Source of the DNA: Leisingera sp. ANG1
GTDB lineage: Bacteria > Pseudomonadota > Alphaproteobacteria > Rhodobacterales > Rhodobacteraceae
DNA length: 64,000 nucleotides
Direction: 5' to 3'
Assembly: GCF_000203975.2 (NCBI RefSeq)
Contig: NZ_AFCF02000007.1
Span: 1 to 64,000 of the forward strand
The position numbers were made by a program, and so were the translations under genes. This document shows, in pieces, positions 24,636-59,104 of this stretch (its first letter is position 1; each line of letters begins with the position of its first letter). The notes under the pieces were generated by a model. That model was not told where the DNA came from, made no database searches, and worked only from the letters and a program-made list of their open reading frames with translations.

Positions 24636-27295
<2,660 letters not shown>

Positions 27296-27296
<1 letters not shown>

Positions 27297-28267: not shown

Positions 28268-28367
28268 GATGTCATCTCCCTGACGTGCTTGTGCTTTTAT
28301 TAATGCGCTCCACCCCCGCCATTGCCCCGGGCCAAGGGTGGAGCGTTGCGCCTGTTCCGTTGCCGGA

Positions 28368-30457: not shown

Positions 30458-30490
30458 GGTCCTCTCCTCCTCATGGATGTCGGAATTCTA

Positions 30491-31741: not shown

Positions 31742-31905
31742 CGGGGTCAGGCCTCGCTGTTGTCGTTTCGGCGATGTGCCGGAGGTCCCAGGCCTTCTGC
31801 GCCGCGATCTTCGCTGCGGGAAGGTTTGTTTCCTGTCGTGCAACATCTGTTAACCTAAGGAAAACCCAGGTCGACAAAACCCGCAACATTCCTATATCCT
31901 GCTTT

Positions 31906-31991
31906 TGGGTATCTAAATGGGCGGCTAAAAACCTACCCGAACTGGTAAAAATACCGTTGCATACCGAAATGCACCCTACCCATTTGGGTAG
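31906..31991. promoter_or_regulatory. TACCC/GGGTA operator-like repeats in the sgaA/LuxR divergent region
   Basis: A perfect dyad CTACCC-ATTT-GGGTAG occupies 31976-31991, with further single arms GGGTA at 31907-31911 and CTACCC at 31933-31938. They lie in the 271-bp spacer between sgaA and the LuxR-type gene. The dyad lies 21 bp before the regulator start codon, a good place for autoregulation. Binding protein not shown; the adjacent LuxR-type protein is the natural candidate. Confidence 0.45.
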
Positions 31992-32012
31992 TTTGAAACG
32001 AAAAGGCACCAA

Positions 32013-32666: not shown

Positions 32667-32690
32667 TCCTGGCGCATCGTGCCGCGGCTC

Positions 32691-32752
32691 GCACGCGTGT
32701 GCGCATACGCGTGCGCACGCGAGGGCGCGACGCGCGGGCGCGCTCCCGCGCG
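32691..32752. repeat. Hairpins of alternating CG/CA after the LuxR-type gene
   Basis: Two strong inverted repeats: GTGCGCA/TGCGCAC (32699-32705, 32712-32718) and CGCGCGGG/CCCGCGCG (32731-32738, 32745-32752). The stretch is largely alternating purine-pyrimidine. It sits between the LuxR-type gene and mcl and may end or attenuate transcription, although the following sequence (AATGTATTTAAATG) lacks a clean T run. Confidence 0.45.
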
Positions 32753-32774
32753 AATGTATTTAAATGAAAACTTT

Positions 32775-32789
32775 TTTCTTGACAGGAAA
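32775..32789 (+). promoter_or_regulatory. TTCTT/AGGAA dyad overlapping a TTGACA hexamer upstream of mcl
   Basis: TTTCTTGACAGGAAA is a near-palindrome (one mismatch) with an embedded TTGACA at 32779-32784. It lies ~65 bp upstream of the mcl start, and CCCTGATAGGG follows at 32792-32802. It resembles the TTCCT-GAT-AGGAA dyad upstream of dmmD. No good -10 is visible at normal spacing. Confidence 0.4.
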
Positions 32790-32853
32790 CACCCTGATAG
32801 GGAATGCCTAGGGAGGAGAGTACGAAACCCCATTGCGAATGAGGAGCGCACCC

Positions 32854-33831
32854 ATGTCGTTTCATACCGTCGAACAGGCCCCTGGCCGCCTGAACCGCAG
32901 CGAGCTGGCAATCCCCGGCTCTCAACCCCAAATGTTTGAAAAAGCAGCAAAATCCGATGTCGACGTGATCTTTCTGGATCTCGAAGACGCGGTTGCGCCG
33001 GACGAGAAAGACCAGGCCCGCAAGAACATCATCAAGGCCCTGAACGAGATCGATTGGGGCAACAAATCCATGTCGGTGCGAATCAACGGCCTCGACACCC
33101 ACTACATGTACCGCGATGTCGTCGATGTGGTTGAACAGGCAGGCGAACGCCTTGACCTGATCATGGTCCCCAAGGTCGGCACCGCAGCCGATGTTTATGC
33201 CGTCGACATGCTGGTCACCCAGATCGAAGACGCCAAGGGCTACAAGAAGCGGATCGGCTTCGAGCACATCATCGAGACCGCGCTCGGCATGCAGAACGTG
33301 AGTGAAATTGCCGCAGCCTCCAAGCGCAATGAATCGCTGCATTTCGGCGTTGCCGACTATGCCGCCTCGACCCGTGCCCGCACCACCATCATCGGCGGCG
33401 TGAACCCGGATTACTCGGTGCTGACCGACCCGGCCGCAGATGGCTCACGCGACGTGCATTGGGGCGACATGTGGCACTATGCGCTGGCCCGCATGGTGGT
33501 GGCCGCCCGCGCCAACGGCTTGCGTCCGATCGACGGCCCGTTCGGCGATTTCCAGGACAAGGAAGGCTACAAGGCCGCCGCCAAACGCGCCGCGGTTCTG
33601 GGCTGCGAGGGCAAATGGGCCATCCACCCCAGCCAGATCGAACTGGCCAACGAGGTGATGTCGCCGTCGGACGCGGAAATCACCAAGGCGCACCGCATTC
33701 TGGAAGCGATGGCCGAAGCTGAAGCGGCCGGTAAGGGCGCAGTGTCGCTGGACGGCCGCCTGATTGACTACGCCTCGATCCGTCAGGCAGAAGTGCTGGT
33801 GGAAAAAGCCAAGCAGATCGCCGGCACCTAA
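32854..33831 (+). CDS. mcl: Malyl-CoA/beta-methylmalyl-CoA lyase
   Basis: A 325-residue HpcH/HpaI-CitE family lyase. The Mg-binding/catalytic surroundings LDLEDAVAPDEKDQAR and the stretch GVADYAASTRARTT are typical of L-malyl-CoA lyases. It cleaves malyl-CoA to acetyl-CoA and glyoxylate, closing the serine cycle. Relatives in Rhodobacterales also act on beta-methylmalyl-CoA in the ethylmalonyl-CoA pathway. GAGGAG lies 8 nt before the ATG at 32854, which fixes the start; the upstream in-frame ATGs at 32833 and 32839 are rejected. Followed by glycerate kinase. Confidence 0.93.
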   Translation: MSFHTVEQAPGRLNRSELAIPGSQPQMFEKAAKSDVDVIFLDLEDAVAPDEKDQARKNIIKALNEIDWGNKSMSVRINGLDTHYMYRDVVDVVEQAGERLDLIMVPKVGTAADVYAVDMLVTQIEDAKGYKKRIGFEHIIETALGMQNVSEIAAASKRNESLHFGVADYAASTRARTTIIGGVNPDYSVLTDPAADGSRDVHWGDMWHYALARMVVAARANGLRPIDGPFGDFQDKEGYKAAAKRAAVLGCEGKWAIHPSQIELANEVMSPSDAEITKAHRILEAMAEAEAAGKGAVSLDGRLIDYASIRQAEVLVEKAKQIAGT

Positions 33832-33911
33832 GCCGCCGTTCTGTTTCAAGACCTTACGCCGCCCCGGCTTTGGCTGGGGCGGCTAAGCGGCGCTATGCCA
33901 GGGAGACGCAG

Positions 33912-35174
33912 ATGACCGGATTGCTGACCACCGCCAAGGCCCTGTTTCAGGCCGCCGTCGACCGGGCAGACCCGGCGCAAGCCCTGCGTGCCCAGCTAGC
34001 GACCTCGCCGCTCTCCCCCTTGCCCGAAGGCGGCAGGAATGTGCTGCTGGCTGTCGGCAAGGCTGCCATCCCGATGATGCGCGAAGCGCTGGCGCTGATC
34101 CCGGATGCAGACCAGGCTTTGGCGATCACAAACCCTGAAAACTACACGGAAATTCCCGGCGCCACGGTGATCTGCGGCGCCCATCCGGTGCCGGATGAAA
34201 CCAGCGCTGCTGCAGGTCAGGCCGCCATTGAGCTGGCCCGTTCCCTTAGCCCCAATGACCGGCTGATTACGCTGATTTCCGGCGGCGGCTCCGCCTTGAT
34301 GGTGGCCCCTGCCCCCGGCCTGACACTGGCGGACAAGGCGGCGGTGAACAAGCTGCTGCTCGCCTCCGGCCTTGAAATCAACGAGATGAATCTGATCCGC
34401 CAGCAGCTGTCGGACACCAAGGGCGGCGGACTGCTGCGCCATGCAGCACCTGCCCAGGTGCAGGCCTATATCCTCTCAGACGTGATCGGCGACGACCTGC
34501 GCGCCATCGCCTCAGGCCCTACCGTTGCACCGATCGGCACCCGCGCTGATGCGCGCGGGATTATGCAGCGCGCGGGCATCTGGGACAGCGCGCCTGAGGC
34601 CGTCAAGACCCGCCTCAGCGCCGCCGAGAATGCCCAGGAAACCCCGCCCCAGGCCACCAACACATTGATCGGTTCCAACCGCCACAGCCTCAAGGCAATG
34701 ATGGCCGTTGCCGCTGAAGACTGGACCCCCAAGCTGGTCTCGCACCGGCTGGTGGGCGATGTGGCAGAGGCCGCTGAAACGGTTGTAAAAGCGGCAGAAA
34801 CCGCCCCCAAGGACAAACCTGTTGCGCTGATCTTCGGAGGTGAAACCACGGTGCAGCTCCGCGGCAGCGGCCTTGGCGGGCGCAACCAGGAACTGGCCCT
34901 CCGCGTCGCCAAACTGGGCGCGGAACGGCTCAGCGGCGACTGGCTGTTCCTCTCCGGCGGCACTGACGGGCGCGATGGCCCCACGGATGCAGCAGGCGGC
35001 ATCGCCACTCCCGACACCTGGGAGGCCATCAGGGCAGCAGGTCAGGACCCGGACGCACTGCAGGCCAACAACGACAGCTACGCGGCGCTCAAATCCGCGG
35101 GCGCGCTGCTGATCACCGGCGGCACCGGCACCAACGTGGCCGATGTGCAAGTTTTCCTGAGGCTGCCCGGCTGA
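33912..35174 (+). CDS. gck: Glycerate 2-kinase (MOFRL family)
   Basis: A 420-residue type II glycerate kinase of the DUF4147/MOFRL family. The N-terminal part contains the GGGSALMVAPAPGLTL nucleotide-associated loop. The C-terminal MOFRL-type domain includes GLGGRNQELALRVAKLG and SGGTDGRDGPTDAAG. It phosphorylates D-glycerate to 2-phosphoglycerate, linking HprA to enolase and Ppc. GGGAG precedes the ATG at 33912. An 8-bp stem hairpin (33858-33865 with 33876-33883) without T-tract lies between mcl and this gene and may stabilise or attenuate the message. Confidence 0.9.
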   Translation: MTGLLTTAKALFQAAVDRADPAQALRAQLATSPLSPLPEGGRNVLLAVGKAAIPMMREALALIPDADQALAITNPENYTEIPGATVICGAHPVPDETSAAAGQAAIELARSLSPNDRLITLISGGGSALMVAPAPGLTLADKAAVNKLLLASGLEINEMNLIRQQLSDTKGGGLLRHAAPAQVQAYILSDVIGDDLRAIASGPTVAPIGTRADARGIMQRAGIWDSAPEAVKTRLSAAENAQETPPQATNTLIGSNRHSLKAMMAVAAEDWTPKLVSHRLVGDVAEAAETVVKAAETAPKDKPVALIFGGETTVQLRGSGLGGRNQELALRVAKLGAERLSGDWLFLSGGTDGRDGPTDAAGGIATPDTWEAIRAAGQDPDALQANNDSYAALKSAGALLITGGTGTNVADVQVFLRLPG

Positions 35175-35698: not shown

Positions 35699-38068
35699 TC
35701 AGGATTGAGGCCGGGTCTTTTTGGGGTCGTAATGGGCAAAAGGTACAATCTTGGCGGGCAGACGTTTTTGATGCCCGTCAAGTTTACCGATTTCCACCTC
35801 GGTTCCGGCCTCCGAACAGGACACATCCACCCGTGCCAGCGCGATGTTCTTGCCCAGAAGCGGCGAACGCATGGAGGAGGTCACCTCGCCGATCTGCGCC
35901 CGGCCGATGTGGACGCAATCGCCATGACCCACGTCGATTGCCGAGTCAATGTCCAGCCCGACCAGCTTGCGGGCAGGCGTGGTCTTGCGCCGGATCAGCG
36001 CATCGCGGCCGATGAAATCATCCTCTTTCGATTTCAGCGGCACCGTGAAACCGATGCCCGCCTCAAACGGGTCGGTCTGATCGCTGAAGTCGTAACCGGC
36101 AAAGATCAAACCGGCCTCGATCCTCACCATATCCAGCGCCTCCAGCCCCATCGGGCGGATGCCGTGGTCCTGCCCGGCCTCCCAGACCGCGTCAAACACC
36201 TCACTGGCGTGTTTCGGGTGGCAGAAGATCTCATATCCCAGCTCGCCGGTGTAGCCGGTCCGCGAGACCACCACCGGCACGCCCTGGTCATCCCCGATGC
36301 GTGCGGGCGTGAAGCGGAACCAGCCCAGTTCCTCCAGCGTCGGATTATGGGGCATGGTCCAGATGATCTTCTTCAGCAGATCGCGGCTTTCAGGGCCTTG
36401 CACGGCGATATTGTGCTGCATGTCGGTCGAGGACCGGATCAGCACGTTCAGGCCCAGCTTCTCCGCCTGCTCGCGGATCCACTCCCCGCCATAGTCCGAG
36501 CCGCCGATCCAGCGGAAATTGTCCTTGCCCAGGCGGAACACGGTGCCGTCATCGATCATGCCGCCATGCGGGTAGCACATCGCGGTATAGACCACCTGCC
36601 CCACCGCCAGCTTCTTGATGTTGCGGGTAAAGATGTACTGGCACAGCGCCTCGGCATCCGGTCCGGTGATCTCGAACTTGCGCAGGGCCGAGAGGTCCAG
36701 CACCACCGATTTCTCGCGGCAGGCCCAGTATTCCTCCAGCGGGCCGGACTCGGCATAGCAATTGGCCAGCCAGAACCCGTTATACTCGATGAAATTGCGG
36801 GTCAGCTTGCTGAGGCGGTCGTGGAAACCGGTTTCCTTGGTCATCTTGGGCTCCGATTCAGGGGTCGCGCGGAACGCAATCGCCCGCTTGAAAGTCTCTG
36901 TTCCGCTATAGGTGCGGATGTGAATGTCGGTGGGGTTCCAGCCATTGGCGGCGCTGGTGTCATCCGGGCAGGCAGAGCTGACACAGACCAGATCGGTCAG
37001 CGCCCGCAGCAGCACGTAGTCACCGGGCCGGGTCCAGGGCTCATCAGCATACATCACGCCGTGATCGTCCAGCCCGGTGTTGAAGAAGAAGTTGATCGCC
37101 ATCCAGCCAGCCCGCGGCGTTACCCCGTGGCCCGCCAGCACGCCGTTGAAGTTATCCGAGCAGTTCACATGGCCGGGATAGCCGATGTCGTCATAATACT
37201 TCGCGGCACAGGCGAGGGCAAAAGCATCGTGGCGCCCCACGGTGTCCTGCACCACCTCGACCAGCGGCAGCATGTCCTGGTCATAGTATTTCGCATGCAG
37301 CCCCGGCATCGGATAGGCATGGCCCATCAGCGTGCGGGTGGTGGTCACATCCAGCGCATGCTCAATCCCCTTGTCCAGTTTGCGGGCGGCGAAGCACTGG
37401 AAGTCGGTGCACTGGCGGCCATCCACATCAATGATCTGGATATAGTCGCCGGCCTTCACGAAATAGCTTTCGGCAGTGGCGCTATGCACCCGAACCTCAT
37501 TGACCGGCTCCGCCAGCGGGTCGGGCAACTCAAACCGGGCCACCTGCTTAATCACGGCACGTTTGACCAACACGGTCAATGAGGTCGCAGTGTCCTGCTT
37601 TTCGAAGTCCATGATGCCGCCGGGGGCCGCGATGATCACCACGCCGTCGCGCTGCACGGCGAAGCTCTCTTCGGTCTTGGCCGGTGTCGCACTGTCGAAG
37701 ACCCGCACCGCACCGCCCTGCGCCAAATCAATGCCGCGCGCCTCCATACCCATGCGCAGGCCGCGCAGGGACTGATCCGAGGTCGTCAGCAGCGCCTTCA
37801 AGCCGCCGGCATCGCAGTTCGCTGCTGCACCGATGATCCTGGCATCGATGCGCCCCTTATCCTCGGCGGCGATGATCTCGCAGGGCTGGCCGCCCTCGTC
37901 ATTGGTCACCGTCACCCGGTCGCCGGTCTCCACCCGGATCAGGATCGCGCCGCAGCCTTCGACCGCATAACGTTCGGTTCCCTTGGGCAATGAGAACACC
38001 GACGGCTGATACAATCCGGAGGGCTTCGGCGGCCCTTTGACAACCTCAGGGAAGCTCATGTCATTCAT
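35699..38068 (-). CDS. tdm: Trimethylamine N-oxide demethylase (TMAO aldolase)
   Basis: A 789-residue two-domain protein. The N-terminal ~1-380 is a DUF1989-like metal-binding domain with conserved Cys residues (RQCTDFQCFA, GHVNCSDNFN, VCVSSACPDDTS). The C-terminal ~400-785 is a GcvT/aminomethyltransferase fold that binds tetrahydrofolate. This DUF1989-GcvT fusion is the hallmark of Tdm, which converts TMAO to dimethylamine and formaldehyde and can hand the C1 unit to THF. The size is close to the Methylocella and Ruegeria enzymes. It heads a two-gene unit with a truncated globin and is divergent from an EamA permease. Product feeds DmmABC and, via formaldehyde/THF, FolD and Fhs. Confidence 0.93.
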   Translation of the reverse strand: MNDMSFPEVVKGPPKPSGLYQPSVFSLPKGTERYAVEGCGAILIRVETGDRVTVTNDEGGQPCEIIAAEDKGRIDARIIGAAANCDAGGLKALLTTSDQSLRGLRMGMEARGIDLAQGGAVRVFDSATPAKTEESFAVQRDGVVIIAAPGGIMDFEKQDTATSLTVLVKRAVIKQVARFELPDPLAEPVNEVRVHSATAESYFVKAGDYIQIIDVDGRQCTDFQCFAARKLDKGIEHALDVTTTRTLMGHAYPMPGLHAKYYDQDMLPLVEVVQDTVGRHDAFALACAAKYYDDIGYPGHVNCSDNFNGVLAGHGVTPRAGWMAINFFFNTGLDDHGVMYADEPWTRPGDYVLLRALTDLVCVSSACPDDTSAANGWNPTDIHIRTYSGTETFKRAIAFRATPESEPKMTKETGFHDRLSKLTRNFIEYNGFWLANCYAESGPLEEYWACREKSVVLDLSALRKFEITGPDAEALCQYIFTRNIKKLAVGQVVYTAMCYPHGGMIDDGTVFRLGKDNFRWIGGSDYGGEWIREQAEKLGLNVLIRSSTDMQHNIAVQGPESRDLLKKIIWTMPHNPTLEELGWFRFTPARIGDDQGVPVVVSRTGYTGELGYEIFCHPKHASEVFDAVWEAGQDHGIRPMGLEALDMVRIEAGLIFAGYDFSDQTDPFEAGIGFTVPLKSKEDDFIGRDALIRRKTTPARKLVGLDIDSAIDVGHGDCVHIGRAQIGEVTSSMRSPLLGKNIALARVDVSCSEAGTEVEIGKLDGHQKRLPAKIVPFAHYDPKKTRPQS

Positions 38069-46862: not shown

Positions 46863-46876
46863 TTCCTTAGAAGGAA
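46863..46876. promoter_or_regulatory. TTCCTT-AG-AAGGAA dyad upstream of mgsA
   Basis: A perfect 6-bp inverted repeat with a 2-bp spacer, ending ~18 bp upstream of the proposed mgsA -35. It also overlaps the T-tract of the amt-operon terminator. Similar TTCC/GGAA dyads lie at amt, dmmD and mcl. Confidence 0.45.
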
Positions 46877-48612: not shown

Positions 48613-48957
48613 TAATCATGTGAAAAATTGTTACCTTTGGGGAAATAATCACAACCCAGAAACGGCACTTACCACTCCCGATGCGACCCCTAAGCCTTGG
48701 ACTTTCAAGGGCTAAACATCTGCCGCGGCGCAACAGTTTCAGGCAGGAGACCACGGAAGGAAGGGCCATCCAATCCAAGGGAACATCGCCAATTTGCGAC
48801 GGAATCACGCGAATCTCCGGCGCAGCCGCACAGCGATTCTCACTCTCAGCGGGCTGCCAGAGGCCCGCCGCAACCCCAAGCCGAAGACCAAAATGACCAC
48901 TTCAGGCCAATTCATGCCGCAAACACGTTCAAAAACCGCCTTTTAAGAGAAATCTTT

Positions 48958-48970
48958 TTCCTGATAGGAA
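48958..48970 (+). promoter_or_regulatory. TTCCT-GAT-AGGAA dyad upstream of the dmmD promoter
   Basis: A perfect 5-bp inverted repeat ending 6 bp before the dmmD -35, a typical activator-type position. The core CCTGATAGG also occurs upstream of mcl (32793-32801). Confidence 0.45.
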
Positions 48971-48976
48971 TAATCG

Positions 48977-49005
48977 TTGACATGAACCCTCCTCCCTTGG
49001 CTAAC
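48977..49005 (+). promoter_or_regulatory. dmmD promoter
   Basis: TTGACA (48977-48982) and GCTAAC (49000-49005) with a 17-bp spacer, closely matching the tmm promoter in arrangement. The first operator begins at the very next base. Confidence 0.6.
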
Positions 49006-49051
49006 TGGACCGGACCAAAGGAACCAAATCAAGAGTTTTGGTCCGCACCAA
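49006..49051 (+). promoter_or_regulatory. Double operator at dmmD (GntR-type candidate)
   Basis: Site 1 TGGACCGGACCAAA (49006-49019) and site 2 TTGGTCCGCACCAA (49038-49051), start to start 32 bp, lie between the -10 and the start codon. Near-identical sites with the same phasing occur at tmm. The TTGGT-N4-ACCAA form resembles TGGT-n-ACCA operators of FadR-family GntR repressors; such a protein is encoded at 54.4 kb. Confidence 0.6.
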
Positions 49052-49067
49052 TAGGGAGACGCAAACA

Positions 49068-50213
49068 ATGGCCATCATCTGGCGGACTTCAGCACTGGCG
49101 CAGCGCCACAAGGAAATCGGCGGCGAGCTGGAAGATTGGAACGGCATGGGAACCGCCTGGTTCTATGACCAGACACCTGAACGCGCCAAGGCCGACTATG
49201 AGGCGGTCCGCACCAAGGCGGGCCTCATGGACGTGTCCGGCCTCAAGAAAGTCCACGTCGTGGGCGAGCACGCCGCCCAGGTCATCGACCGGGTCACCAC
49301 CCGCAACGTCGAAAAGATCATGCCGGGCCGCTCTACTTATGCCTCGATCCTGAATGAACAGGGCAAGTTCGTGGATGACTGCATCATCTACCGCCTGTCA
49401 GTGAACAGCTGGATGGTGGTCCACGGCACCGGCACCGGAATGGAACAGCTCAGCAGCGTTGCCGCCGGCAAGAATTGCTCGGTTGTGTTCGACGACAACC
49501 TGCACGACATGTCGCTGCAAGGCCCCGTCGCCGTGGACTTCCTAGCCGAATATGTGCCCGGCATCCGCGATCTGGCCTATTTCGGCATCATCCAGACCAA
49601 GCTGTTCGGCTGCCCGGTGATGATCTCGCGTACCGGCTACACCGGCGAGCGCGGTTATGAAATCTTCTGCCAGGCCAAGGACGCGGTGCATCTCTGGGAC
49701 AGCATCCTGGACAAGGGCAAGGGGATGGGCATCGTTCCCGTGCAATTCTCCACCCTCGACCTGCTGCGCACCGAAAGCTACCTTCTGTTCTATCCGGGCG
49801 ACAACTCCGAGACCTACCCGTTCGACGATGAGCCCTGCGGCGATACGCTGTGGGAACTGGGCCTCGAGTTTACCGTCTCCCCGGGCAAGACCGGCTTCAT
49901 CGGCGCCGAGAACCATTATGCCGCCGAAGGCAAGGAACGCTTCAAGATCTATGGCGTCATGCTGGAGGGCAAGACCCCCGCGGACGAAGGCGCGGATCTC
50001 TTGCAGAACGGCGAGAAGGTCGGCGTGGTCACCTACGGCATGTACTCCGAGGTGAACAACCACAACGTGGGCATCGCCCGGATGCCGGTCGCCTGCGCCA
50101 AGCCGGGCACCAAGCTGACTGTCCGCAACGGCGACGGCACAGAGATTGCCGCCACCGCCGAAGAGATGCCCTTCTACGACAAGGACAAATCGATCCGCAC
50201 CGCAAAGGGCTGA
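49068..50213 (+). CDS. dmmD: GcvT-like THF-dependent protein of dimethylamine monooxygenase locus (DmmD)
   Basis: A 381-residue aminomethyltransferase (GcvT) fold protein, related to the C-terminal half of Tdm (compare [18 protein letters not shown] here with [18 protein letters not shown] in Tdm). It is the first gene of dmmDABC. DmmD is part of dimethylamine monooxygenase and probably captures the formaldehyde-level carbon on tetrahydrofolate. GGGAGACGCAAACA precedes the ATG at 49068. Expression is expected from the promoter/operator unit immediately upstream. Confidence 0.92.
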
Positions 50214-50284
50214 TCCGGATCCCGGGCGTCCCCGTTCGGGGGCGCCCGCTTTCGTTCACCCGGACTGCAGGAAAAGCGACCCAC

Positions 50285-50896
50285 ATGTCTAAGACCGAAT
50301 TCCCCCCTTCCATCACCAGCCGCCCGGTTTACGGCGAGCTTGAGGCCCGCTCCGGCAGCGGCCACCTGATGATCGCCGACGCCGAAGGCGCCGAGGCGAT
50401 CCTGGATCTGGCCAATTCCGCAGACGCGGACTTCTGGGCCAAGGCCCATATCATCTACATCCCCAAGAAGACCGGCACCAAATACAGCAGCCAGCTGGAG
50501 GCACTGGGGGCCGGCAAATATTACGCAGGCCCGTCTTACGAAGCCGCACAGAGCCGCATCCGCCGCGCCTTGCAGGACTGCCACATGGGCACGCAGGTCT
50601 ACCTCTCAGGCACCGAAAGCCTGATGGGCCAGGCCATGGCCGAGGCCACAGCCGCTGGCATTCCGCACACCGCCATCCAGACTGAACACCGCGGCTCCAC
50701 CGCGCGGCGCATGCAATGCGTGCACTGCAAGGGCATCACCGAGGACGTCACCACCGACCCGTTCGAATGCAGTCACTGCGGCCTCAGCCTGTTCGTGCGC
50801 GATCACTATTCGCGCCGCCTCGCCGCCTTTCAGGGTGTGCGGGTGGATGCCGAGGATCCGGGCAACATCCCCGAGAAAGTGGAGCTGTTCAAATGA
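50285..50896 (+). CDS. dmmA: Dimethylamine monooxygenase subunit DmmA
   Basis: A 203-residue protein whose C-terminal region holds a two-CxxC metal-binding motif (CVHCKG, then FECSHCG ~15 residues later), probably zinc. The N-terminal two thirds resemble a mixed alpha/beta domain without a catalytic motif I recognise. Second gene of dmmDABC. The ATG at 50285 fits the conserved length; the frame is open much further upstream but only as a shadow of dmmD. It overlaps dmmB by 4 bp (ATGA). Confidence 0.88.
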   Translation: MSKTEFPPSITSRPVYGELEARSGSGHLMIADAEGAEAILDLANSADADFWAKAHIIYIPKKTGTKYSSQLEALGAGKYYAGPSYEAAQSRIRRALQDCHMGTQVYLSGTESLMGQAMAEATAAGIPHTAIQTEHRGSTARRMQCVHCKGITEDVTTDPFECSHCGLSLFVRDHYSRRLAAFQGVRVDAEDPGNIPEKVELFK

Positions 50897-51858
50897 GTGC
50901 TGGCACCGCAAAACTGAATGTCACCGTGGCCGAGGTCAAACCGATCAACGACCTGGTCACCCGTTTCAAATTCGTCCGCACCGGCGGCGGCGACCTGCCC
51001 ACCTTCTCGGGCGGCGCGCATACCGTGGTCGAGATGCAGGACGGCGATATCACCCGCCTGAACGCCTATTCGCTGATGTCCAACCCGGCCGACCGCGGCG
51101 CCTACACCATCTCGGTGCGGCGCGACGATCAGGGCCGCGGCGGCTCAAAATTTATGCACAGCAAGGTGAAAGAGGGTTTGGAGATGGTGATCTCCAACCC
51201 GGTGAACCTGTTCTCGCTGGATTTGCGCGCCAAAAAGCACCTGATGCTGGCCGGCGGCATCGGCATCACCCCTTTCATGGCCCAGATGCACCAGCTGTCG
51301 ATGATGGGCGGCAACTTCGAACTGCATTACTCGGTCCGCACCGCCTCGCTCGGCACCTACGCCAAGGAGCTGTCGGAGCGCTACCCAGGCAAGGTGCACA
51401 TCTACCACGACGACCAGAAAGAGGCGATCGACCTCAAGACCCTGCTCGCCAACCAGCCCTTGGGCACGCACGTCTATGTCTGCGGCCCCAAGGGCATGAT
51501 CAATTGGGTGCACTCCACCGCCGAGGACATGGGCTGGCCGCGCGAGGCCGTGCATTCCGAGGAATTCCTGGCGCCTGCCTCAGGCAAGCCCTTCGAGGTC
51601 AAATGCGCGGTCTCCAACAAGATCGTTCAGGTCGGCGAGCATCAATCGCTGCTGGAAGCATTGGAAGCGGCGGGCATCGACGCCCCCTACCTCTGCCGCG
51701 GCGGCGCCTGCGGCCAGTGCGAGACCAATGTCATCGGCTATGACGGCAAGTTCCTGCACTACGACCACTGGCTGACCGACGAGCAAAAGGCCGGCGGCAA
51801 GCACATCATGCCCTGCGTGTCGCGCTTTGAAGGCAAGACACTGGTTCTGGACCGCTGA
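50893..51858 (+). CDS. dmmB: Dimethylamine monooxygenase reductase subunit DmmB
   Basis: A 321-residue flavin reductase of the phthalate dioxygenase reductase type. The flavin-binding barrel is at ~1-105 (LNAYSLMSNP), the NAD-binding domain at ~110-225 (LAGGIGITPFMAQM; YVCGPKGMI), and a C-terminal plant-type [2Fe-2S] ferredoxin at ~235-321 with CRGGACGQC and a final Cys. It passes electrons from NAD(P)H to the heme subunit DmmC. The ATG at 50893 overlaps the dmmA stop, indicating coupling. Confidence 0.94.
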   Translation: MSAGTAKLNVTVAEVKPINDLVTRFKFVRTGGGDLPTFSGGAHTVVEMQDGDITRLNAYSLMSNPADRGAYTISVRRDDQGRGGSKFMHSKVKEGLEMVISNPVNLFSLDLRAKKHLMLAGGIGITPFMAQMHQLSMMGGNFELHYSVRTASLGTYAKELSERYPGKVHIYHDDQKEAIDLKTLLANQPLGTHVYVCGPKGMINWVHSTAEDMGWPREAVHSEEFLAPASGKPFEVKCAVSNKIVQVGEHQSLLEALEAAGIDAPYLCRGGACGQCETNVIGYDGKFLHYDHWLTDEQKAGGKHIMPCVSRFEGKTLVLDR

Positions 51859-51869
51859 GGAAGAGAAAG

Positions 51870-52916
51870 ATGACCATTCAATTCAACGACGAAACCTTCT
51901 ACGGCGATTTCACCTTCAAGAACTCGGACTGGGCAATCAAACGGTTCCCCTTCCCGTTCCACGAAGACAGCTACATGTATTCGGTGAACATGGAGCCGCA
52001 TAAATCCTACCGGCCCGGCTCGGTGTTCGAACGCACCTTCGACGTGGACGAGCACTATGTCTCGGAAATGAAGGACCGCGCCCGGGTTCTGGCAAACGAC
52101 CCGCTGCGCTGCCAGTCGCTGCCGCATATGACCCTCGCGGGCTGGGACTTGGTCGAACTGATTATGGAGGCCAAGGCGGCTGAATATCCGGACCTGTTCG
52201 AACTGCACAAGGACGGCAACCGCTGGCGCTGGGTGAACAAGCCGCTGGGCATCGACGACACCTTCACCTTCCTCGATGAAAGCACCCTGCCCTACGGGCC
52301 GATGGAATACATCACCCGCCAGACCCAGGGCGACTTTGCGGTGCTCGACCAGCGCGACGACAACCTGTGGATGGATGCCGGCATGGTCACCACCCAGGCC
52401 GACTGGTCGCTGGATTTCGATATCGGCATGAACTTCTTTGAATGGCACGCGCCGGTGCCGAAGGCGCATGAGATGGGCATCTTCGTGCGGGCGCTGAAGT
52501 TCCTGCTGAACATCCAGCAGGGCCAGCCCGCCCGCCGCCTGAACTGGACCATGACCGTCAACCCGTTGCTCGACACCAGCCCCGAGAACTACCACAAATG
52601 GGGCGTGATGAAGCAGGGGCTGACGATGGAGAACATCGGCGAGAAACAGCACCTGCGGGTCGAGCTGCAGACCTTCTTCCGCCTGCCGCGCTCCAACGCG
52701 CTGGTGTTCCCGATCCGCTGTTACCTGATCAGCTTCAATGATCTGGTAACAGTGCCGAAATGGGCGCGCCGCCTGCACCGGGTGATCCGCGACCTGCCGG
52801 AGGAGCTGGCAACCTACAAGGGCTTCATCGACAACCGCCCGCTGATGGTGGAATGGCTCTCGCAGTTTGATGACGGCACCCCAACCTCGGACGGCATCTG
52901 GCCCGACGACGACTGA
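51870..52916 (+). CDS. dmmC: Dimethylamine monooxygenase heme subunit DmmC (DUF3445)
   Basis: A 348-residue member of the heme-dependent oxidative N-demethylase family (DUF3445). It carries the family-typical RPGSVFERTFDVDEHYVSEM and a Cys in LRCQSLPHMT followed by conserved His/Asp-rich segments. It is the oxygen-activating subunit that converts dimethylamine to methylamine and formaldehyde. Last gene of dmmDABC, 11 bp after dmmB, with a terminator at 52972-53007. GAGGAAGAGAAAG precedes the ATG. Confidence 0.92.
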   Translation: MTIQFNDETFYGDFTFKNSDWAIKRFPFPFHEDSYMYSVNMEPHKSYRPGSVFERTFDVDEHYVSEMKDRARVLANDPLRCQSLPHMTLAGWDLVELIMEAKAAEYPDLFELHKDGNRWRWVNKPLGIDDTFTFLDESTLPYGPMEYITRQTQGDFAVLDQRDDNLWMDAGMVTTQADWSLDFDIGMNFFEWHAPVPKAHEMGIFVRALKFLLNIQQGQPARRLNWTMTVNPLLDTSPENYHKWGVMKQGLTMENIGEKQHLRVELQTFFRLPRSNALVFPIRCYLISFNDLVTVPKWARRLHRVIRDLPEELATYKGFIDNRPLMVEWLSQFDDGTPTSDGIWPDDD

Positions 52917-53231
52917 TCCCGAGCGGACTTGCGGGCCGTCCCTACCCCTGTCACTTAGGCCCGCTTCACTGACTGCCGCTGCCTCTGGCTCCGGCAGTTT
53001 CTTTTTACGTGCAGACGGGCGCGAAGCTCTCCCGCCCCCGCATCAGGCCGCAGGCTCCGCCTGCCGCCCGCGCGGCGTTGGGCCGGGCAGCGCGCCTTGC
53101 GCGCTGCGGGCGGCAACCGGCAAGGCAGCAGCAGAACGCAACCGCGCCACGCATCGCGCGGCGCCATGCCCAACGGTACAGGGGCATCTTCTGATGCCGC
53201 GGAACCGGCGGGAGACCCCCGCCGCCGCGCG
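52917..53231. other. Intergenic region with hairpins between dmmC and the XRE gene
   Basis: This 315-bp stretch between convergent genes holds the dmm terminator and then nested hairpins: GCCGCCCG/CGGGCGGC enclosing GCAGCGCGC/GCGCGCTGC (53087-53107). The style resembles an interspersed intergenic repeat, like the 4.1-4.3 kb region. No gene is supported. Confidence 0.5.
52972..53007 (+). terminator. Terminator of the dmmDABC operon
   Basis: ACTGCCG (52972-52978) pairs with CGGCAGT (52992-52998), followed by TTCTTTTT. Confidence 0.75.
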
Positions 53232-53888
53232 TCAGCTCGATTGCGGGTAGGAAATGATCGACAGGTAACGGGCCGGCAGCTTGACCAACTGCTCCGGCCC
53301 GTGCGGCGCATCCGCATCAAAGAACAGCGTGTCGCCCGGCTTCAGCGGGAACACCTTGTCGCCATGGCGGTAGTCGACCTCGCCTTCCAGCATATAGAGC
53401 ATCTCCACCCCGTCGTGCTGGAAGGTCGGGAACACATCCGACTCCTCGGTCAGAGTGATCATGTAAGGCTCCACCATCACACCGGATGCATTGGCACCCA
53501 GATGCCCCAGCAGCTGGTACTGATGCCCGGCCCGTGTGCCCGCGCGCTCGGTCTCCGCGCCTTCACCGGACTTGGTGTGCACCGCCTCGCGGCTTTCCTC
53601 AAACCGCCGGAAAAACGACGTGATCGGCACGCTTAGCGCATTGGCCAGAAGCTGCAAAGTGGTAAGCGACGGCGAGGTGTTGCCGTTCTCGATCTTCGAC
53701 AGCATCCCGATTGACAGCCCGGTCAGATTGGCCAGATCCGCCACTGTGATCCCTTGCTGCCGCCGGAACGACCGCACCTCGCGGCCAATCGCCACTTCCA
53801 GAACTTTTTCTGCACCATCACGGACCCGGTGCGGGTCTTGGGAAAGGTTATTTGCCACTGCGTCACTATCATCTTTGAGTTTAGCCAC
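53232..53888 (-). CDS. XRE family transcriptional regulator with cupin sensor domain
   Basis: About 218 residues: helix-turn-helix of the XRE/Cro type in the first third (FRRQQGITVADLANLTGLSIGMLSKIENG) and a C-terminal cupin barrel (GVEMLYMLEGEVDYRHGDK; GDTLFFDADAPHG). Members often sense small nitrogenous metabolites. The start is taken as GTG at 53888 because AAGGAAG lies just upstream; a TTG at 53921 has no ribosome site. It converges on dmmC, has its own promoter at 53979-54007 and is divergent from gntR. A regulator of the dmm/mgs genes is plausible but unproven. Confidence 0.85.
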   Translation of the reverse strand: MAKLKDDSDAVANNLSQDPHRVRDGAEKVLEVAIGREVRSFRRQQGITVADLANLTGLSIGMLSKIENGNTSPSLTTLQLLANALSVPITSFFRRFEESREAVHTKSGEGAETERAGTRAGHQYQLLGHLGANASGVMVEPYMITLTEESDVFPTFQHDGVEMLYMLEGEVDYRHGDKVFPLKPGDTLFFDADAPHGPEQLVKLPARYLSIISYPQSS

Positions 53889-54447
53889 TGTGTTATCTTC
53901 CTTATGGATGGCCTCTGACAAGCGCGCAGCAGCCGATATGTAAAAACTTTCCCAAACGCAAGGAATGCTGCGAAAATTATTTTACTGCCATTACTCATTT
54001 TTCCCAACCCCTTACCGCCACAGGAAAGAAATTTGTTGCCGCGGCGCTGCGCCCGCCTACCGAAGGGCGGCATCCGGCGTGACCTGAAAATCAGGCCGGC
54101 AGGGACACAGGGCCACCGCCGCCAGAAGACAGGCCCGGTTCGCGCTTGCGGCCTCCAGACCAAAAAGGCACCAATTTTGCGGCCCTCCAGACAGTGACTT
54201 CGCTCTGCGACCTAAAAATGGCAGAAAAACAGAGAGATAGCGCCGTCCGTCTAAACCTGTGAAAACACCACAACACAGAACCAATTCGCAGAGCTGTCCT
54301 TGCTGACTAGCAGCGGAACCGCTAATCTGAGACCCAATCACCGCTGTGAAAACACCTGCAACACCGCCACCCACACTGGCATAAGCAGCGAGCGCACAGC
54401 ACTCAGGAGCAGGGTTTCCCGCTCACACGGCCCGGAAAAGACAGACC
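53889..54447. other. Divergent control region between the XRE and GntR genes
   Basis: A 559-bp stretch without a supported gene. It holds the XRE promoter (53979-54007), a direct repeat CTGTGAAAACACC (54257-54269 and 54344-54356), and a small AGCGG-AA-CCGCT dyad at 54311-54322. No gntR promoter with good hexamers was found. Confidence 0.5.
53979..54007 (-). promoter_or_regulatory. Putative promoter of the XRE-cupin gene
   Basis: On the minus strand TTGGGA (54007-54002) and TAAAAT (53984-53979) are 17 bp apart, ~95 bp upstream of the GTG start. The spacer contains TGAGTAAT, which also overlaps the fhs -10 region (TGAGTAAT). Confidence 0.5.
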
Positions 54448-55176
54448 ATGAGCTCAGCGGAAGAAACCACTTCGCAAATTCTGACCACCCATTCCGTCGG
54501 CGCCACGGTGCAGGTGGTGATCGACACGCTGTTTGCCCGGATCAAATCCGGCACCTACCCGGTGGACACCCGGCTGCCCTCGGAACGCACACTGGCGTCC
54601 GAACTGGGCGTCGCCCGCAACACCGTGCGGGAGGCGCTGGATGTTCTGGCCACCCAGAACGTGATCCACCGCCGGGCCGGCTCCGGCAGCTTTGTGAAAT
54701 ACCGCTCCGACCCCAAGCCGGAAGCCACCTCCTATAGCTCGCTGGCCAACGAGGTTTCACCGCTCGACCATCTTGTGGTGCGCGGCATTCTGGAGCCGGA
54801 ACTGGTGCGGCTGGCAGTGATCAACATGACCCCGCGCCAGATCGAGGAGCTGGATCAGATCCTGTCCCGTGTCGAAGCCGTGCGCACTGACCCAGGTGAA
54901 TTCATCGATGCGGAGGAGGATCTCTACCGCAAAATCGCCGAGGGCACCGGCAACCCGCTGCTGCACTCCTGCTACGAGCTGACGATCGAGGCCTGCCGCC
55001 TGTCCTACCGCACTGCGCTGCGCCGCCGCCACCTGACGCCGCAGCGGATTCAGGACTACCAAAAGCGCTACAACACGCTGTTCAACGCCATCGCCTCGCG
55101 CGATGTGGAATCGGCGGTGGAATTCATCAAGCTGCACCTTATCGACGAGCAGAAGCTGCTGCTGCAGGAGGTCTGA
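54448..55176 (+). CDS. GntR family regulator (FadR/FCD subfamily)
   Basis: A 242-residue protein with an N-terminal winged helix (~20-85; YPVDTRLPSERTLASELGVARNTVREAL) and a C-terminal all-helical FCD ligand domain whose Asp/His residues usually bind a metal and a carboxylate effector. It lies between dmmDABC and tmm, both of which carry TTGGTCCGnACCAA-type operators. This makes it the prime candidate for their repressor (inference). It converges with the substrate-binding-protein gene (6-bp gap). Confidence 0.9.
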   Translation: MSSAEETTSQILTTHSVGATVQVVIDTLFARIKSGTYPVDTRLPSERTLASELGVARNTVREALDVLATQNVIHRRAGSGSFVKYRSDPKPEATSYSSLANEVSPLDHLVVRGILEPELVRLAVINMTPRQIEELDQILSRVEAVRTDPGEFIDAEEDLYRKIAEGTGNPLLHSCYELTIEACRLSYRTALRRRHLTPQRIQDYQKRYNTLFNAIASRDVESAVEFIKLHLIDEQKLLLQEV

Positions 55177-55182
55177 TCCCGC

Positions 55183-56484
55183 TCAGCCCTCCACCGCACG
55201 CGAGCTGACCTCGCTGCCCGGCGCATCGCTTTCCAGCCGCTGGTGCCATAGCTGCCCCAGCGCTTCCATCTCTGATTTCAGCAGACCTGAATGCTGCGCC
55301 AGCCAGGCGGGGATCGACTTGAAATCCGCAATCCGCGCCTTGCCGTCCTGGATCGTCACCACCGGCCAATCGCCCACCAAGGCATTGGAAATACCGAATA
55401 TTTCTTCACCCCACCATTCCGCGTGGCCAAAGGCGTGGGTGACATGGCCCAGCTGTTTCATTGCTGCCAGCACCGAGGGCGGCGCGACCGATCCCGCCTT
55501 CTCCACCGCGCTGTGCCAGATATCCAGGATCGCCACATATTCCCAGCTCACCGCAGACCAGCTGCCCGGGAAACGCCGGTTGTACTCCTCATAGAACACA
55601 TGCGGCCGGTTGAAGAAAAACGCCTTTTCCCGAAGCATCGGATCATCAAAATCCGGAAACTGGAACACCACCCCCTCCATGAAGTCCGGCGAGGTCCGCT
55701 CCACCAGCCGGTCATAACCGTCCATGGTGCAACTGATGATCTGCCCTTTGAAGCCTTTGGAATGGGCATATTCGGTCATTGCGTGCACCATCGGCGCATA
55801 AGACGAGCACCAGCACAGGATATCGGCGCCGCTTTCCAGCATCGGATCCACCACCGGCGCCGGATCACTGGAACCGGCATCATACTGCACCTCGTGCAGG
55901 ATCTCCTTGTCCGCCGCCTTGAACGCCGCCCGGTATACAGCTTGCGAAGGCAGCCCCAGAAGATCGAACTGGCTGCACAGGGCCACCGTTTTCAGCTCCG
56001 GCCGGTTTTCCGCCAGCCAGGACACCCCGGTCACATTCTGAATCGGGTGCGCCTCGCTTGGCGCAATCAAATAGGGCGTGTCCGGCGACAGGTCGCTGGG
56101 CAGCAGCGTGGACGTCAGCACCTTGTTGCGCATCAGGAAGTCGCGCACCGGCGCGAAGGTATCACCGCCCAGCATCAGCATCAGCTTCACGTTGTGCTGC
56201 TGAACCAGTTCAACCGCACCTTCCAGCGCGCGTTCAGGGTCGTAGCCGCAATCGTATGAGTGGATCCGGATCGGATAGCGGCGGCCGCCGATCAGCACCC
56301 CGCCGGCCTTGTTCAGCCCGTCCTCCCAGATCCGGCAGCCGTTCAATCCGGGCAGCCCCCAGCTCTCCACAGGACCCGAAAGCGGGCCAAGGAACCCGAT
56401 ATTCACTGATTCTGCCATCCCCACGGACAGCCGCGGCAACGCCGCGCGGGCGGTCAACTGGTGCACAAAACTGGTCGTCTTCAT
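55183..56484 (-). CDS. Substrate-binding protein family member without signal peptide (UrtA/AmiC-like)
   Basis: A 433-residue type I periplasmic-binding-protein fold (branched-chain amide/urea class), with VNIGFLGPLSGPVESWG at the N-terminus and the two-lobed pattern throughout. The start at 56484 has TAGGA upstream. The first 22 residues (MKTTSFVHQLTARAALPRL...) lack the hydrophobic core of a signal peptide, and an alternative ATG at 56418 would begin right at the fold. No ABC permease or ATPase genes lie nearby. It may therefore be a cytoplasmic ligand sensor of the AmiC type rather than a transporter component. Divergent from tmm, convergent with gntR. Confidence 0.78.
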   Translation of the reverse strand: MKTTSFVHQLTARAALPRLSVGMAESVNIGFLGPLSGPVESWGLPGLNGCRIWEDGLNKAGGVLIGGRRYPIRIHSYDCGYDPERALEGAVELVQQHNVKLMLMLGGDTFAPVRDFLMRNKVLTSTLLPSDLSPDTPYLIAPSEAHPIQNVTGVSWLAENRPELKTVALCSQFDLLGLPSQAVYRAAFKAADKEILHEVQYDAGSSDPAPVVDPMLESGADILCWCSSYAPMVHAMTEYAHSKGFKGQIISCTMDGYDRLVERTSPDFMEGVVFQFPDFDDPMLREKAFFFNRPHVFYEEYNRRFPGSWSAVSWEYVAILDIWHSAVEKAGSVAPPSVLAAMKQLGHVTHAFGHAEWWGEEIFGISNALVGDWPVVTIQDGKARIADFKSIPAWLAQHSGLLKSEMEALGQLWHQRLESDAPGSEVSSRAVEG

Positions 56485-56559
56485 ATTTGAAATCCTACCA
56501 AGAAAACAACGCGTTTCCAGTCCAATTGCCCCCAAAAACATTCCGCATGTGAAAAAATG

Positions 56560-56589
56560 TTGACTTATTGGTGCAAGTTTGGACCTAAT
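56560..56589 (+). promoter_or_regulatory. tmm promoter
   Basis: TTGACT (56560-56565) and CCTAAT (56584-56589) with an 18-bp spacer (17 if read ACCTAA). Layout matches the dmmD promoter, including CTAA followed 1 nt later by the first operator. Confidence 0.6.
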
Positions 56590-56634
56590 TGGACCAGACC
56601 AAATGAGCCAAATTAAGATATTGGTCCGAACCAA
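56590..56634 (+). promoter_or_regulatory. Double operator at tmm (GntR-type candidate)
   Basis: Site 1 TGGACCAGACCAAA (56590-56603) and site 2 TTGGTCCGAACCAA (56621-56634), start to start 31 bp. Each differs from the dmmD sites by one base. An extra TTTGGACCTAATT arm lies just upstream. Even the spacer is alike (CCAAATTAAGA versus CCAAATCAAGA). Confidence 0.65.
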
Positions 56635-56646
56635 CGGGAGAACCAG

Positions 56647-57993
56647 ATGACCAAGAAACGTATTGCCATCATCGGCGCCGGCCCTTCAGGCCTGGCCCAG
56701 CTGCGCGCCTTCCAGTCCGCGGCCAACAAGGGCGAGGAGATCCCGGAAATCGTCTGTTTTGAAAAGCAGGACGACTGGGGCGGCCTGTGGAACTACACTT
56801 GGCGTACCGGCCTGGACGAAAACGGCGAGCCGGTGCACTGCTCTATGTACCGCTACCTGTGGTCCAACGGGCCCAAGGAAGGCCTGGAGTTTGCCGACTA
56901 TTCATTCGAAGAGCATTTCGGCAAACAGATCGCCTCCTACCCGCCGCGCGCCGTGCTGTTCGACTACATCGAAGGCCGGGTGAAAAAGGCGGATGTGCGC
57001 AAGTGGATCCGCTTCAACTCCCCGATCCGCTGGGTCGAATACAACGAGGACAAGGGCAATTTCACCGTCACCGTGCATGACCACGCCAAGGACAGCACCT
57101 ACAAGGAAGACTTCGATCACGTGATCTGCGCCTCGGGCCACTTCTCAACCCCGAATGTGCCGTTCTACCCTGGTTTCGACACCTTCAACGGCCGCGTCCT
57201 GCACGCCCACGACTTCCGTGATGCCCGCGAATTTGCAGGCAAGGACATCCTGCTTTTGGGCTCTTCCTATTCTGCCGAAGACATCGGCTCCCAGTGCTGG
57301 AAATACGGCGCCAAGTCGATCACCACCTCCTACCGCTCAGCACCGATGGGCTTCAAATGGCCGGACAACTGGGACGAGGTTCCGGCGCTGGAATCGGTGT
57401 CCGGCAACACTGCCACCTTCGTTGACGGCACCCAGAAGGAAGTCGATGCGATCATCCTCTGCACCGGCTACAAGCACTTCTTCAACTTCCTGCCGGACGA
57501 CCTGCGCCTGAAAACCGCCAATCGCCTGGCCACCGCCGACCTCTACAAAGGCGTGGTCTTTGCCCATAACCCCAAGATGTTCTATCTGGGCATGCAGGAT
57601 CAGTGGTTCACCTTCAACATGTTCGACGCCCAGGCCTGGTGGGTCCGCGACGCGATCATGGGCAAGATCCAGATTCCGGCGGACAAGGAAACCCTTCTGG
57701 CCGACGTCAAGGAGCGCGAAGAGCGCGAGGAAGCCTCAGACGACGTCAAATACGCGATCAAGTACCAGGGCGACTACGTGCTGGAACTGATCGAGGAGAC
57801 CGACTACCCGACCTTCGACGTGGCGGGCGCCTGCCAGGCCTTCTATGAGTGGAAAGGCCACAAGGCCCAGGACATCATGGCCTTCCGCAACAACTCCTAC
57901 AAATCAGTGATCACCGGCACCATGGCACCCGTGCACCACACCCCGTGGAAGGACGCCCTGGACGACTCGCTGGAAGCATATCTGCAGAACTAG
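56647..57993 (+). CDS. tmm: Trimethylamine monooxygenase (flavin-containing)
   Basis: A 448-residue flavin-containing monooxygenase that oxidises trimethylamine to TMAO with NADPH and O2. The FAD motif [12 protein letters not shown] is at the N-terminus, the FMO signature region [11 protein letters not shown] at ~190, and the NADPH motif [12 protein letters not shown] at ~205. Length and the [11 protein letters not shown] and W-rich motifs match bacterial Tmm. CGGGAGAACC precedes the ATG. Carries the double operator shared with dmmD. Product is the substrate of Tdm at 35.7 kb. Confidence 0.95.
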
Positions 57994-58099: not shown

Positions 58100-59104
58100 A
58101 TGCAGCGCGATAACACCATGACACTCGGCTTTCTGATTTTTCCCGGCTTTCCAATGGCCTGCCTGACCTCGGCCATCGAACCCCTGCGCGCGGCAAATGA
58201 AATTGCCGGCTCTGAAACCTTCCGATGGAAACTGGTGTCCGAAACCGGCAGCAGCGTGAACGCCTCCGCCAATGTGGCCTTCCAGCCCGACTGCGCCCTG
58301 GATGAGGCCGACGGCGTCGACACCCTGTTCCTCTTGTCCAGCCCGCAAGGCAAATTTGAGGACCCCAAGGCCTCCAACGGCAAGCTGCGCCACCTGGCCC
58401 GGCACGGCACCACCATGGGCGCGGTCTCCGGCGGGGTGTTTCCGCTGGCCCGCTCCGGCCTGCTCGACGGCCACAGCTGCTCGGTCCACTGGTGCTATAA
58501 GGCAGCCTTCACAGCCGAGTTCCCGTCCCTTGCCACCGTCGACGACGTGATCGTGCTGGACCGCCGCCGCTTCACTGCCAGCGGCGCCGCGGCGATGTTC
58601 GACCTGTCGCTGAAACTGATCGAGCGCGCCATGGGCGACGCCGTGATGACAGAGGTCGCCTGCTGGTTCCAGCACCCGATGGTCCGCGCCGAAGGCGTGC
58701 GTCAGAAAATCCCCGCCTTCAAGACCGACAGCACCGCCGACAGCCTGCCGCCGCCGGTTGCCAAGGCGGTTGAGCTGTTTGCCGACAATCTGGAGCACCC
58801 GGTCTCAATCCGTGATGCCGCCAGCGAAATCGGCGTTTCGCCGCGCCAGCTGGAGCGCAGCTTCAAGGCCGCCACCGGCCAGAGCCCGGCCATCTATTAC
58901 CGCACCCTGCGGATGAACGCGGCACGGCAGCTGGTGATGTATTCCCGCGACTCGATCACCTCGATCGCCAATGCGGTGGGCTATGCCACCTCCTCCACCC
59001 TGTCGCAGCACTACCGCGAAAGCTTCGGCGTCACCCCACAGGAGGAACGCCGCAAGGTGAACCTGTTCAGGGTCCAGGACAACCGGCCCATCCCCTCAGC
59101 CTGA
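58100..59104 (+). CDS. GlxA-type AraC family transcriptional regulator
   Basis: A 334-residue protein with an N-terminal DJ-1/PfpI-like domain (~1-190, probably non-catalytic ligand sensing) and a C-terminal AraC double helix-turn-helix (~225-315; ISIRDAASEIGVSPRQLERSFKAATG and SITSIANAVGYATSSTLSQHYRESFG). GlxA-type regulators control catabolism of betaines, dimethylglycine or carnitine in proteobacteria (GbdR/CdhR relatives). The position next to tmm and mgd suggests a methylated-amine or glycine-betaine signal. The ATG at 58100 is retained; an ATG at 58118 is also possible. Confidence 0.87.
   Translation: MQRDNTMTLGFLIFPGFPMACLTSAIEPLRAANEIAGSETFRWKLVSETGSSVNASANVAFQPDCALDEADGVDTLFLLSSPQGKFEDPKASNGKLRHLARHGTTMGAVSGGVFPLARSGLLDGHSCSVHWCYKAAFTAEFPSLATVDDVIVLDRRRFTASGAAAMFDLSLKLIERAMGDAVMTEVACWFQHPMVRAEGVRQKIPAFKTDSTADSLPPPVAKAVELFADNLEHPVSIRDAASEIGVSPRQLERSFKAATGQSPAIYYRTLRMNAARQLVMYSRDSITSIANAVGYATSSTLSQHYRESFGVTPQEERRKVNLFRVQDNRPIPSA

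Follow-up and report, generated by a model that had tools for sequence, protein, structure and literature searches.

A composite operator common to the tmm and dmmD promoters of Leisingera and its probable recognition by the repressor TmoR

The control of tmm, the gene for trimethylamine monooxygenase, by the repressor TmoR was reportedly first described in Ruegeria pomeroyi DSS-3 by Lidbury et al. in 2016. Here we analyze a 64,000-nucleotide stretch of the genome of Leisingera sp. ANG1 (contig NZ_AFCF02000007.1, positions 1 to 64,000; hereafter the window), in which a GntR-type regulator gene lies between tmm and dmmD, the first gene of the dmm operon, and in which tmm and dmmD are preceded by the same arrangement of palindromes. 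In R. pomeroyi, TmoR (SPO1553) is a direct repressor of tmm that binds the tmm promoter, its DNA-binding domain with a dissociation constant (Kd) of 5.1 uM, and its effectors are dimethylamine (DMA), the main one, and trimethylamine N-oxide (TMAO), a minor one (PMC13390433). A second regulator of that organism, the AraC-type protein TmaR (SPO1584), binds both the tmm and the dmm promoters in vitro (PMC13390433). The available part of that paper, to which all our citations of it refer, maps no TmoR binding site at tmm, and our search, which covered the open-licence literature, listed no further paper dealing with TmoR sites or with an operator upstream of dmmD.

The Leisingera locus resembles that of R. 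pomeroyi DSS-3 in the family of the regulator, in its place beside tmm with one gene between, and in its target tmm (PMC13390433). The two differ in that TmoR of R. pomeroyi leaves dmm unchanged and its site is unmapped in the available text, whereas in Leisingera a presumed site can be defined and a second copy of it lies before dmmD. A relative of TmaR is encoded in the same cluster, and TmaR is reported to bind the dmm promoter (PMC13390433); unlike TmoR, TmaR does not track the operator described here and would be expected elsewhere in the promoter. A broader comparison is offered by the operators of the FadR subfamily of GntR regulators (PdhR, LldR and GlcC), in which TKGT/ACMA boxes form a palindrome and the regulators likewise join a GntR helix-turn-helix (HTH) to an FCD domain, according to the available part of PMC4494728. 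The TTGGT...ACCAA boxes at dmmD and tmm fit this description, assuming that they are the predicted TmoR sites, but here two palindromes and a middle half-site make up one composite operator.

We consider it probable that dmmD acquired its promoter as a copy of the one at tmm, that the paired palindromes are TmoR operators, and that tmm and dmmDABC are jointly repressed and are released by DMA. When methylamines are lacking, one TmoR dimer would occupy the upstream palindrome (operator 1), covering the presumed -10 and start point, and a second would sit on the downstream palindrome (operator 2), about three helical turns further on in the leader beside the ribosome-binding site; the dimers, perhaps acting cooperatively with the middle half-site, would block transcription of tmm and dmmDABC. 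Because dimethylamine, the main TmoR effector in R. pomeroyi (PMC13390433), would release the repressor, the trimethylamine (TMA)-oxidising and DMA-consuming steps would be derepressed together, and activator input is probably preserved through an element that precedes the -35. We infer TmoR binding at dmmD, its cooperativity, the start points and the direction of copying. Joint switching of tmm and dmmD is predicted for this lineage, in addition to an activator, and is not a general rule: a variant of a known system, in which the regulon of a known repressor has been extended in one lineage, most likely by promoter duplication. The presumed TmoR operator is now defined and testable, and the finding makes it possible to predict the bacteria in which DMA gates Dmm directly. 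It would be a case from nature in which duplication of a promoter has added a member to a regulon, and it indicates that the wiring of R. pomeroyi need not hold for other roseobacters.

Two promoters with one layout

Read directly, both promoters consist of TTGAC, two 14-bp imperfect palindromes flanking a half-site, and a ribosome-binding site (table 1). The half-site between the palindromes is conserved and forms part of the regulatory unit. After operator 2, GGGAGA and the start codon follow, two bases on at dmmD (ATG 49068) and one base on at tmm (ATG 56647). The earlier note on this DNA had described a shared arrangement at both promoters, and this is confirmed, but the gap from TTGAC(A/T) to CTAA is 18 nt at dmmD and 19 nt at tmm rather than about 17; its spacing of 32 and 31 bp is correct as measured from TGGACC, and becomes 33 bp (dmmD) and 32 bp (tmm) from start to start when the 14-mers are taken in register. 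A strict sigma-70 scan returned no promoter in either the dmmD or the tmm region, so the -10 elements and start points of both genes are given here as presumed.

Several lines of evidence indicate that the likeness of the two promoters is not due to chance. Aligned locally, they reach a score of 36, while the best of 5000 dinucleotide shuffles reaches 20. Each promoter is also the other's best-scoring tile in the window. Together with the likeness to tmm promoters described below, the alignment score upholds the suggestion of the earlier note that the pair are copies of one regulatory unit. At two or fewer mismatches, TTGGTCCRNACCAA has 11 matches in the window where 2.68 are expected, a number reached in 0 of 100 shuffles; eight of the 11 come from the four palindromes described here, each counted on both strands. 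The composite pattern ACCAANNGNNCCARN{4,14}TTGGTNC matches exactly twice in the 4,587,644-bp genome, both times at these promoters, and reversed-pattern controls give 0 matches. Three of the five exact genomic matches to TTGGNCCNNACCAA likewise lie at the dmmD and tmm promoters. The others are at C4:42758 and C14:172943, the former of which falls within an open reading frame and was rejected as a further operator copy. Two sequences resembling the dmmD promoter, at 31921 and 32701 (scores 17 and 16), were also set aside, being without the operator.

The GntR gene between dmmD and tmm is, by family and place, the orthologue of TmoR. Its product matches PF00392 (N-terminal HTH; E 2.2e-17) and PF07729 (C-terminal FCD; E 1.1e-22), both above the curated cut-off, and is 94-99% identical to 10 Leisingera loci among the 38 matches listed. 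The gene adjoins tmm with one gene between, as expected of a tmoR orthologue, and this intervening gene, which encodes a periplasmic-binding-protein-like (SBP-like) product, is present in all 19 genomes with a close tmoR. Within the recognition-helix region, all 20 close TmoR orthologues compared have the same RNTVR, which also occurs in one of two distant homologues.

Distribution of the operator and of tmoR

We surveyed 295 genomes from 294 genera, finding tmm in 67, a dmmD match in 43 and a TmoR match in 21. Nineteen of the 21 TmoR matches are close (57-100% identity), and G275 and G064, with distant relatives only (43 and 40%), were counted as lacking tmoR. Scored were 65 tmm promoters, leaving out G246 (match beginning at residue 25) and G102 (contig end), and 37 of the 43 dmmD promoters, leaving out G009 and G064 (distant homologues), G030 and G166 (partial), G121 and G178. 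Of the 18 genomes with tmoR, 12 have at least three TTGGT/ACCAA half-sites within 110 bp at tmm, as does one of the 47 without (Fisher 5e-8); for looser TGGT/ACCA boxes the counts are 17/18 and 4/47. The association (phi) with the tmm operator is 0.72 for TmoR, 0.55 for the SBP-like gene, 0.12 for the XRE-cupin regulator and 0.06 for TmaR. In trees of tmm, one of 36 sequences (31 of the survey's 67 plus five named loci) and one, used for contrasts, of 30 of the 67, there are three supported independent contrasts, and all three agree with an association of operator and tmoR. A strict composite pattern occurs in six of 159 family genomes: that of the window, G039 (at tmm), and G036, G081, G100 and G145 with single sites. 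The operator at tmm tracks tmoR across genera, and not its XRE-cupin or TmaR neighbours. The earlier note had named the FadR-type GntR gene as a candidate for binding these sites, a choice that now appears well made given its orthology to a published tmm repressor (PMC13390433) and the tracking of the operator with tmoR.

At dmmD the distribution is far narrower. Within the genus of the window, whose genomes are not independent events, dmmD and tmoR occur in 20 of 21 genomes, and all 20 dmmD-bearing genomes carry operator 1 and the middle half-site at dmmD. The strict composite has 36 matches in the 21 genomes. Of these, 20 immediately precede dmmD, and the other 16 lie where the tmm promoter is expected, at a distance of 1.4-1.6 kb beyond tmoR; the reversed-pattern control gives two matches in all. 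The single genome without a composite match, G238, lacks tmm, dmmD and tmoR. A composite operator stands at tmm in 19 of 20 genomes, of which three (G298, G302 and G303) carry TTGGTCT in place of TTGGTNC. A second genus (G200, G314 and G315) has operator 1 at dmmD in all three genomes, with substitutions in G200. In the one-per-genus survey the strict threshold at dmmD is reached in one of 19 genomes with tmoR, that of the window itself, and in none of 18 without; G200 has two half-sites. The dmmD operator is therefore confined, in this survey, to the genus of the window and one further genus. The paired sites that the earlier note expected in related genomes are present in the genus (at dmmD, operator 1 in 20/20; at tmm, the composite in 19/20, the twentieth having lost tmm), but beyond the two genera the dmmD promoters surveyed lack the operator. 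Outside both genera, the dmmD promoters L075 (G086) and L077 (G053) contain scattered TTGGTTC and TGGTCCAA pieces, which may be chance or operator remnants.

Origin of the dmmD promoter and rival explanations

The operator-bearing dmmD promoters resemble tmm promoters and not other dmmD promoters. Five of them score 34-46 against whichever of 28 tmoR-locus tmm promoters each matches best; on the same scale they reach a maximum of 19 against 28 tmm promoters without tmoR and at most 14 against 28 operator-less dmmD promoters. In G315 the dmmD promoter retains TTGACATATTGGTATA, which is also present in Roseovarius-type tmm promoters. Because the operator is widespread at tmm and narrow at dmmD, copying would have run from tmm to dmmD.

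Two situations suggest that the dmmD promoter has been retained. In five of the 20 genus genomes dmmD is a different version, with a protein 67-68% identical (L188-L192 vs L069, L175 and L178). Relative to the closest sister, these genomes are 88-92% identical in the promoter, 89-93% in the DNA past dmmD and 89-96% on the amt side, but 73-74% in the dmmD DNA and no more than 58-64% at 200-400 bp upstream, so that the promoter appears to have been preserved with a diverged stretch on either side. In G306, all that is left of tmm at the expected place is two short remnants (40 kb searched), the SBP-like gene is truncated and operator 1 of tmm is missing. This genome keeps an intact tmoR frame, tmaR, dmmD and the dmmD operator, and its sole strict site is the one at dmmD (L221 13051-14069, L211 2990-3300). 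On balance we lean towards a capture of the promoter, in which, in the ancestor of the two genera, a copy of the tmm promoter that included the TmoR operator took the place of the dmmDABC promoter. The DMA step would thereby have moved from control by a late catabolite only to direct derepression by its own substrate, DMA, and the captured promoter would since have persisted while the dmmD coding sequence beneath it was replaced and, in one species, while tmm was lost.

It is doubtful that the dmmD operator instead arose in place by point changes. The operators are short, the tmm and dmmD spacers differ and the similarity score comes mostly from the operator itself, all of which such an origin would explain, but the likeness spans the promoter from a box upstream of the -35 through the ribosome-binding site, TTGACATATTGGTATA is common to the G315 dmmD promoter and tmm promoters, and likeness to other dmmD promoters is never above 14. 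We likewise regard it as unlikely that TmoR controls tmm only, with the dmmD copy weakly bound or a relic and dmm run by an activator as in R. pomeroyi. Although dmm of R. pomeroyi is unaffected by tmoR deletion (PMC13390433) and operator 2 of dmmD is damaged in some genomes of both genera, operator 1 and the middle half-site are kept in 20 of 20 genomes, even under the different dmmD version with its poorly conserved upstream stretch, and G306 retains the dmmD operator though tmm is gone.

Ownership of the operators by another regulator of the cluster, either the XRE-cupin protein or TmaR, is quite improbable. Both genes lie within the cluster, and the in vitro binding of R. pomeroyi TmaR to the tmm and dmm promoters (PMC13390433) would suit it, but the XRE-cupin gene, though found in 12 of 13 operator genomes, also occurs in 42 of the 52 that have no operator, TmaR (about 51% identity or more) occurs in seven of 13 operator genomes and 24 of 52 others, leaving six operator genomes without such a TmaR, and sites at and past the presumed start are in a repressor's place. 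Hardly credible is an action of the repeats in RNA, through a leader hairpin between operators 1 and 2 that affects the transcript. The dmmD leader can fold into a 10-bp stem between both sites at -18.8 kcal/mol (tmm, -8.9; values without a shuffle control), but the hairpin is weak at tmm, Roseovarius-type promoters have an extra half-site between -35 and -10 that is presumably untranscribed, and operator presence follows a DNA-binding repressor, a DNA palindrome predicting the same RNA pairing.

Against joint repression of tmm and dmmDABC by TmoR, which we continue to favor, several observations have to be set. In R. pomeroyi, deletion of tmoR leaves dmm, tdm and downstream genes unchanged, and TmaR activates tdm, dmm, gmaS and mgd (PMC13390433); that dmmD of R. 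pomeroyi is without the operator we infer from other genera. The GT-AC distance is 4 nt here, against the 3 or 2 nt usual for the FadR subfamily, and is that of most HutC sites (PMC4494728); this spacing criterion is typical of the FadR subfamily rather than defining, and bears on the site and not on the protein domains. A single 14-mer with at most one mismatch is not enriched genome-wide (78 matches vs 86 in the control), so the composite alone is the telling evidence. The half-site thresholds were chosen with the data already in view, the strict one is missed by six of 18 tmoR genomes, and G195 passes it with no tmoR detected in a 340-contig assembly in which tmm runs from base 711 of its contig. 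Only two of the 12 tmoR genomes among the 159 family genomes have the strict composite, the three independent contrasts are too few for p<0.05, and the SBP-like gene tracks the operator too (12 of 13 operator genomes, 13 of 52 others). At dmmD, operator 2 is intact in 15 of the 20 genus genomes and has lost its 3' half in the other five, and it is damaged in all three genomes of the second genus. Finally, a recent loss of tmm in G306 would likewise leave tmoR intact for some time.

Features of the cluster and further observations

Table 1. Genes and promoter elements of the tmm-dmmD cluster, in window coordinates.
Feature	Position	Strand	Remarks
TTTCCTGATAGGAA palindrome	48957..48970	+	just upstream of dmmD -35; candidate activator or XRE-cupin site, owner presumed
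TTGACA, presumed -35 of dmmD	48977..48982	+	direct reading; conserved in genus
CTAA upstream of dmmD operator 1	49001-49004	+	one base before TGGACCGGACCAAA
Operator 1 of dmmD, CTGGACCGGACCAA	49005..49018	+	direct reading; with middle half-site in 20/20 genus genomes
TGGACCGGACCAAA in dmmD promoter	49006-49019	+	then ACCAAATCAAGA, then TTGGTCCGCACCAA
Middle half-site of dmmD, ACCAAA	49023..49028	+	direct reading
Operator 2 of dmmD, TTGGTCCGCACCAA	49038..49051	+	intact in 15/20 genus genomes
dmmD	49068..50213	+	first gene of dmm operon
dmm genes downstream of dmmD	50288..52916	+	DmmA-like, reductase-like, HODM-like
XRE-cupin regulator	53232-53921		
tmoR	54448..55176	+	GntR+FCD repressor; profile matches
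SBP-like gene	55183-56484	-	divergent from tmm
TTGACT, presumed -35 of tmm	56560..56565	+	direct reading
CTAA upstream of tmm operator 1	56585-56588	+	one base before TGGACCAGACCAAA
Operator 1 of tmm, TTGGACCAGACCAA	56589..56602	+	direct reading
TGGACCAGACCAAA in tmm promoter	56590-56603	+	then CCAAATTAAGA, then TTGGTCCGAACCAA
Middle half-site of tmm, CCAAA	56608..56612	+	direct reading
Operator 2 of tmm, TTGGTCCGAACCAA	56621..56634	+	direct reading
tmm	56647..57993	+	trimethylamine monooxygenase
AraC-type regulator with DJ-1/PfpI domain	58100..59104	+	TmaR orthologue by place and family; putative second control layer (PMC13390433, available part)

The palindrome upstream of the dmmD -35 (TTNCCTNNNRGGAAA/TTNCCTGNNRGGAAA-like) may carry the activator input and is a candidate site of the XRE-cupin protein or TmaR. 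It is the window's only exact match to TTNCCTGNNRGGAA, a pattern that is not enriched at 2 mismatches. A TTNCCTGNNRGGAAA-like palindrome is found upstream of the -35 at most dmmD promoters, and a weaker one at 46863-46876 precedes the mgs/gmaS genes. Scored as TTNCCTNNNRGGAAA, a motif picked by eye and scored without a shuffle control, it lies 94-118 nt before the dmmD start; among the 37 genomes, 10 match at all 11 positions and 12 more at 10 of 11. All 37 of these scored dmmD genomes have the XRE-cupin gene, and 26 have a close TmaR.

Elsewhere in its genome, Leisingera sp. ANG1 encodes a second AraC-type protein (G000:C14:363872-364831), 53% identical to the TmaR of the window. Loose ACCAA-type half-sites lie upstream of tmoR at 54156-54174 and 54278-54284 and could mean weak autoregulation. 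The SBP-like gene has no adjacent transporter gene and its product no signal peptide by eye; the product may be a ligand sensor. Farther upstream, a serine-cycle-like gene set (24636-35174), named from translations alone, stands beside a tdm-like gene (35699-38068).

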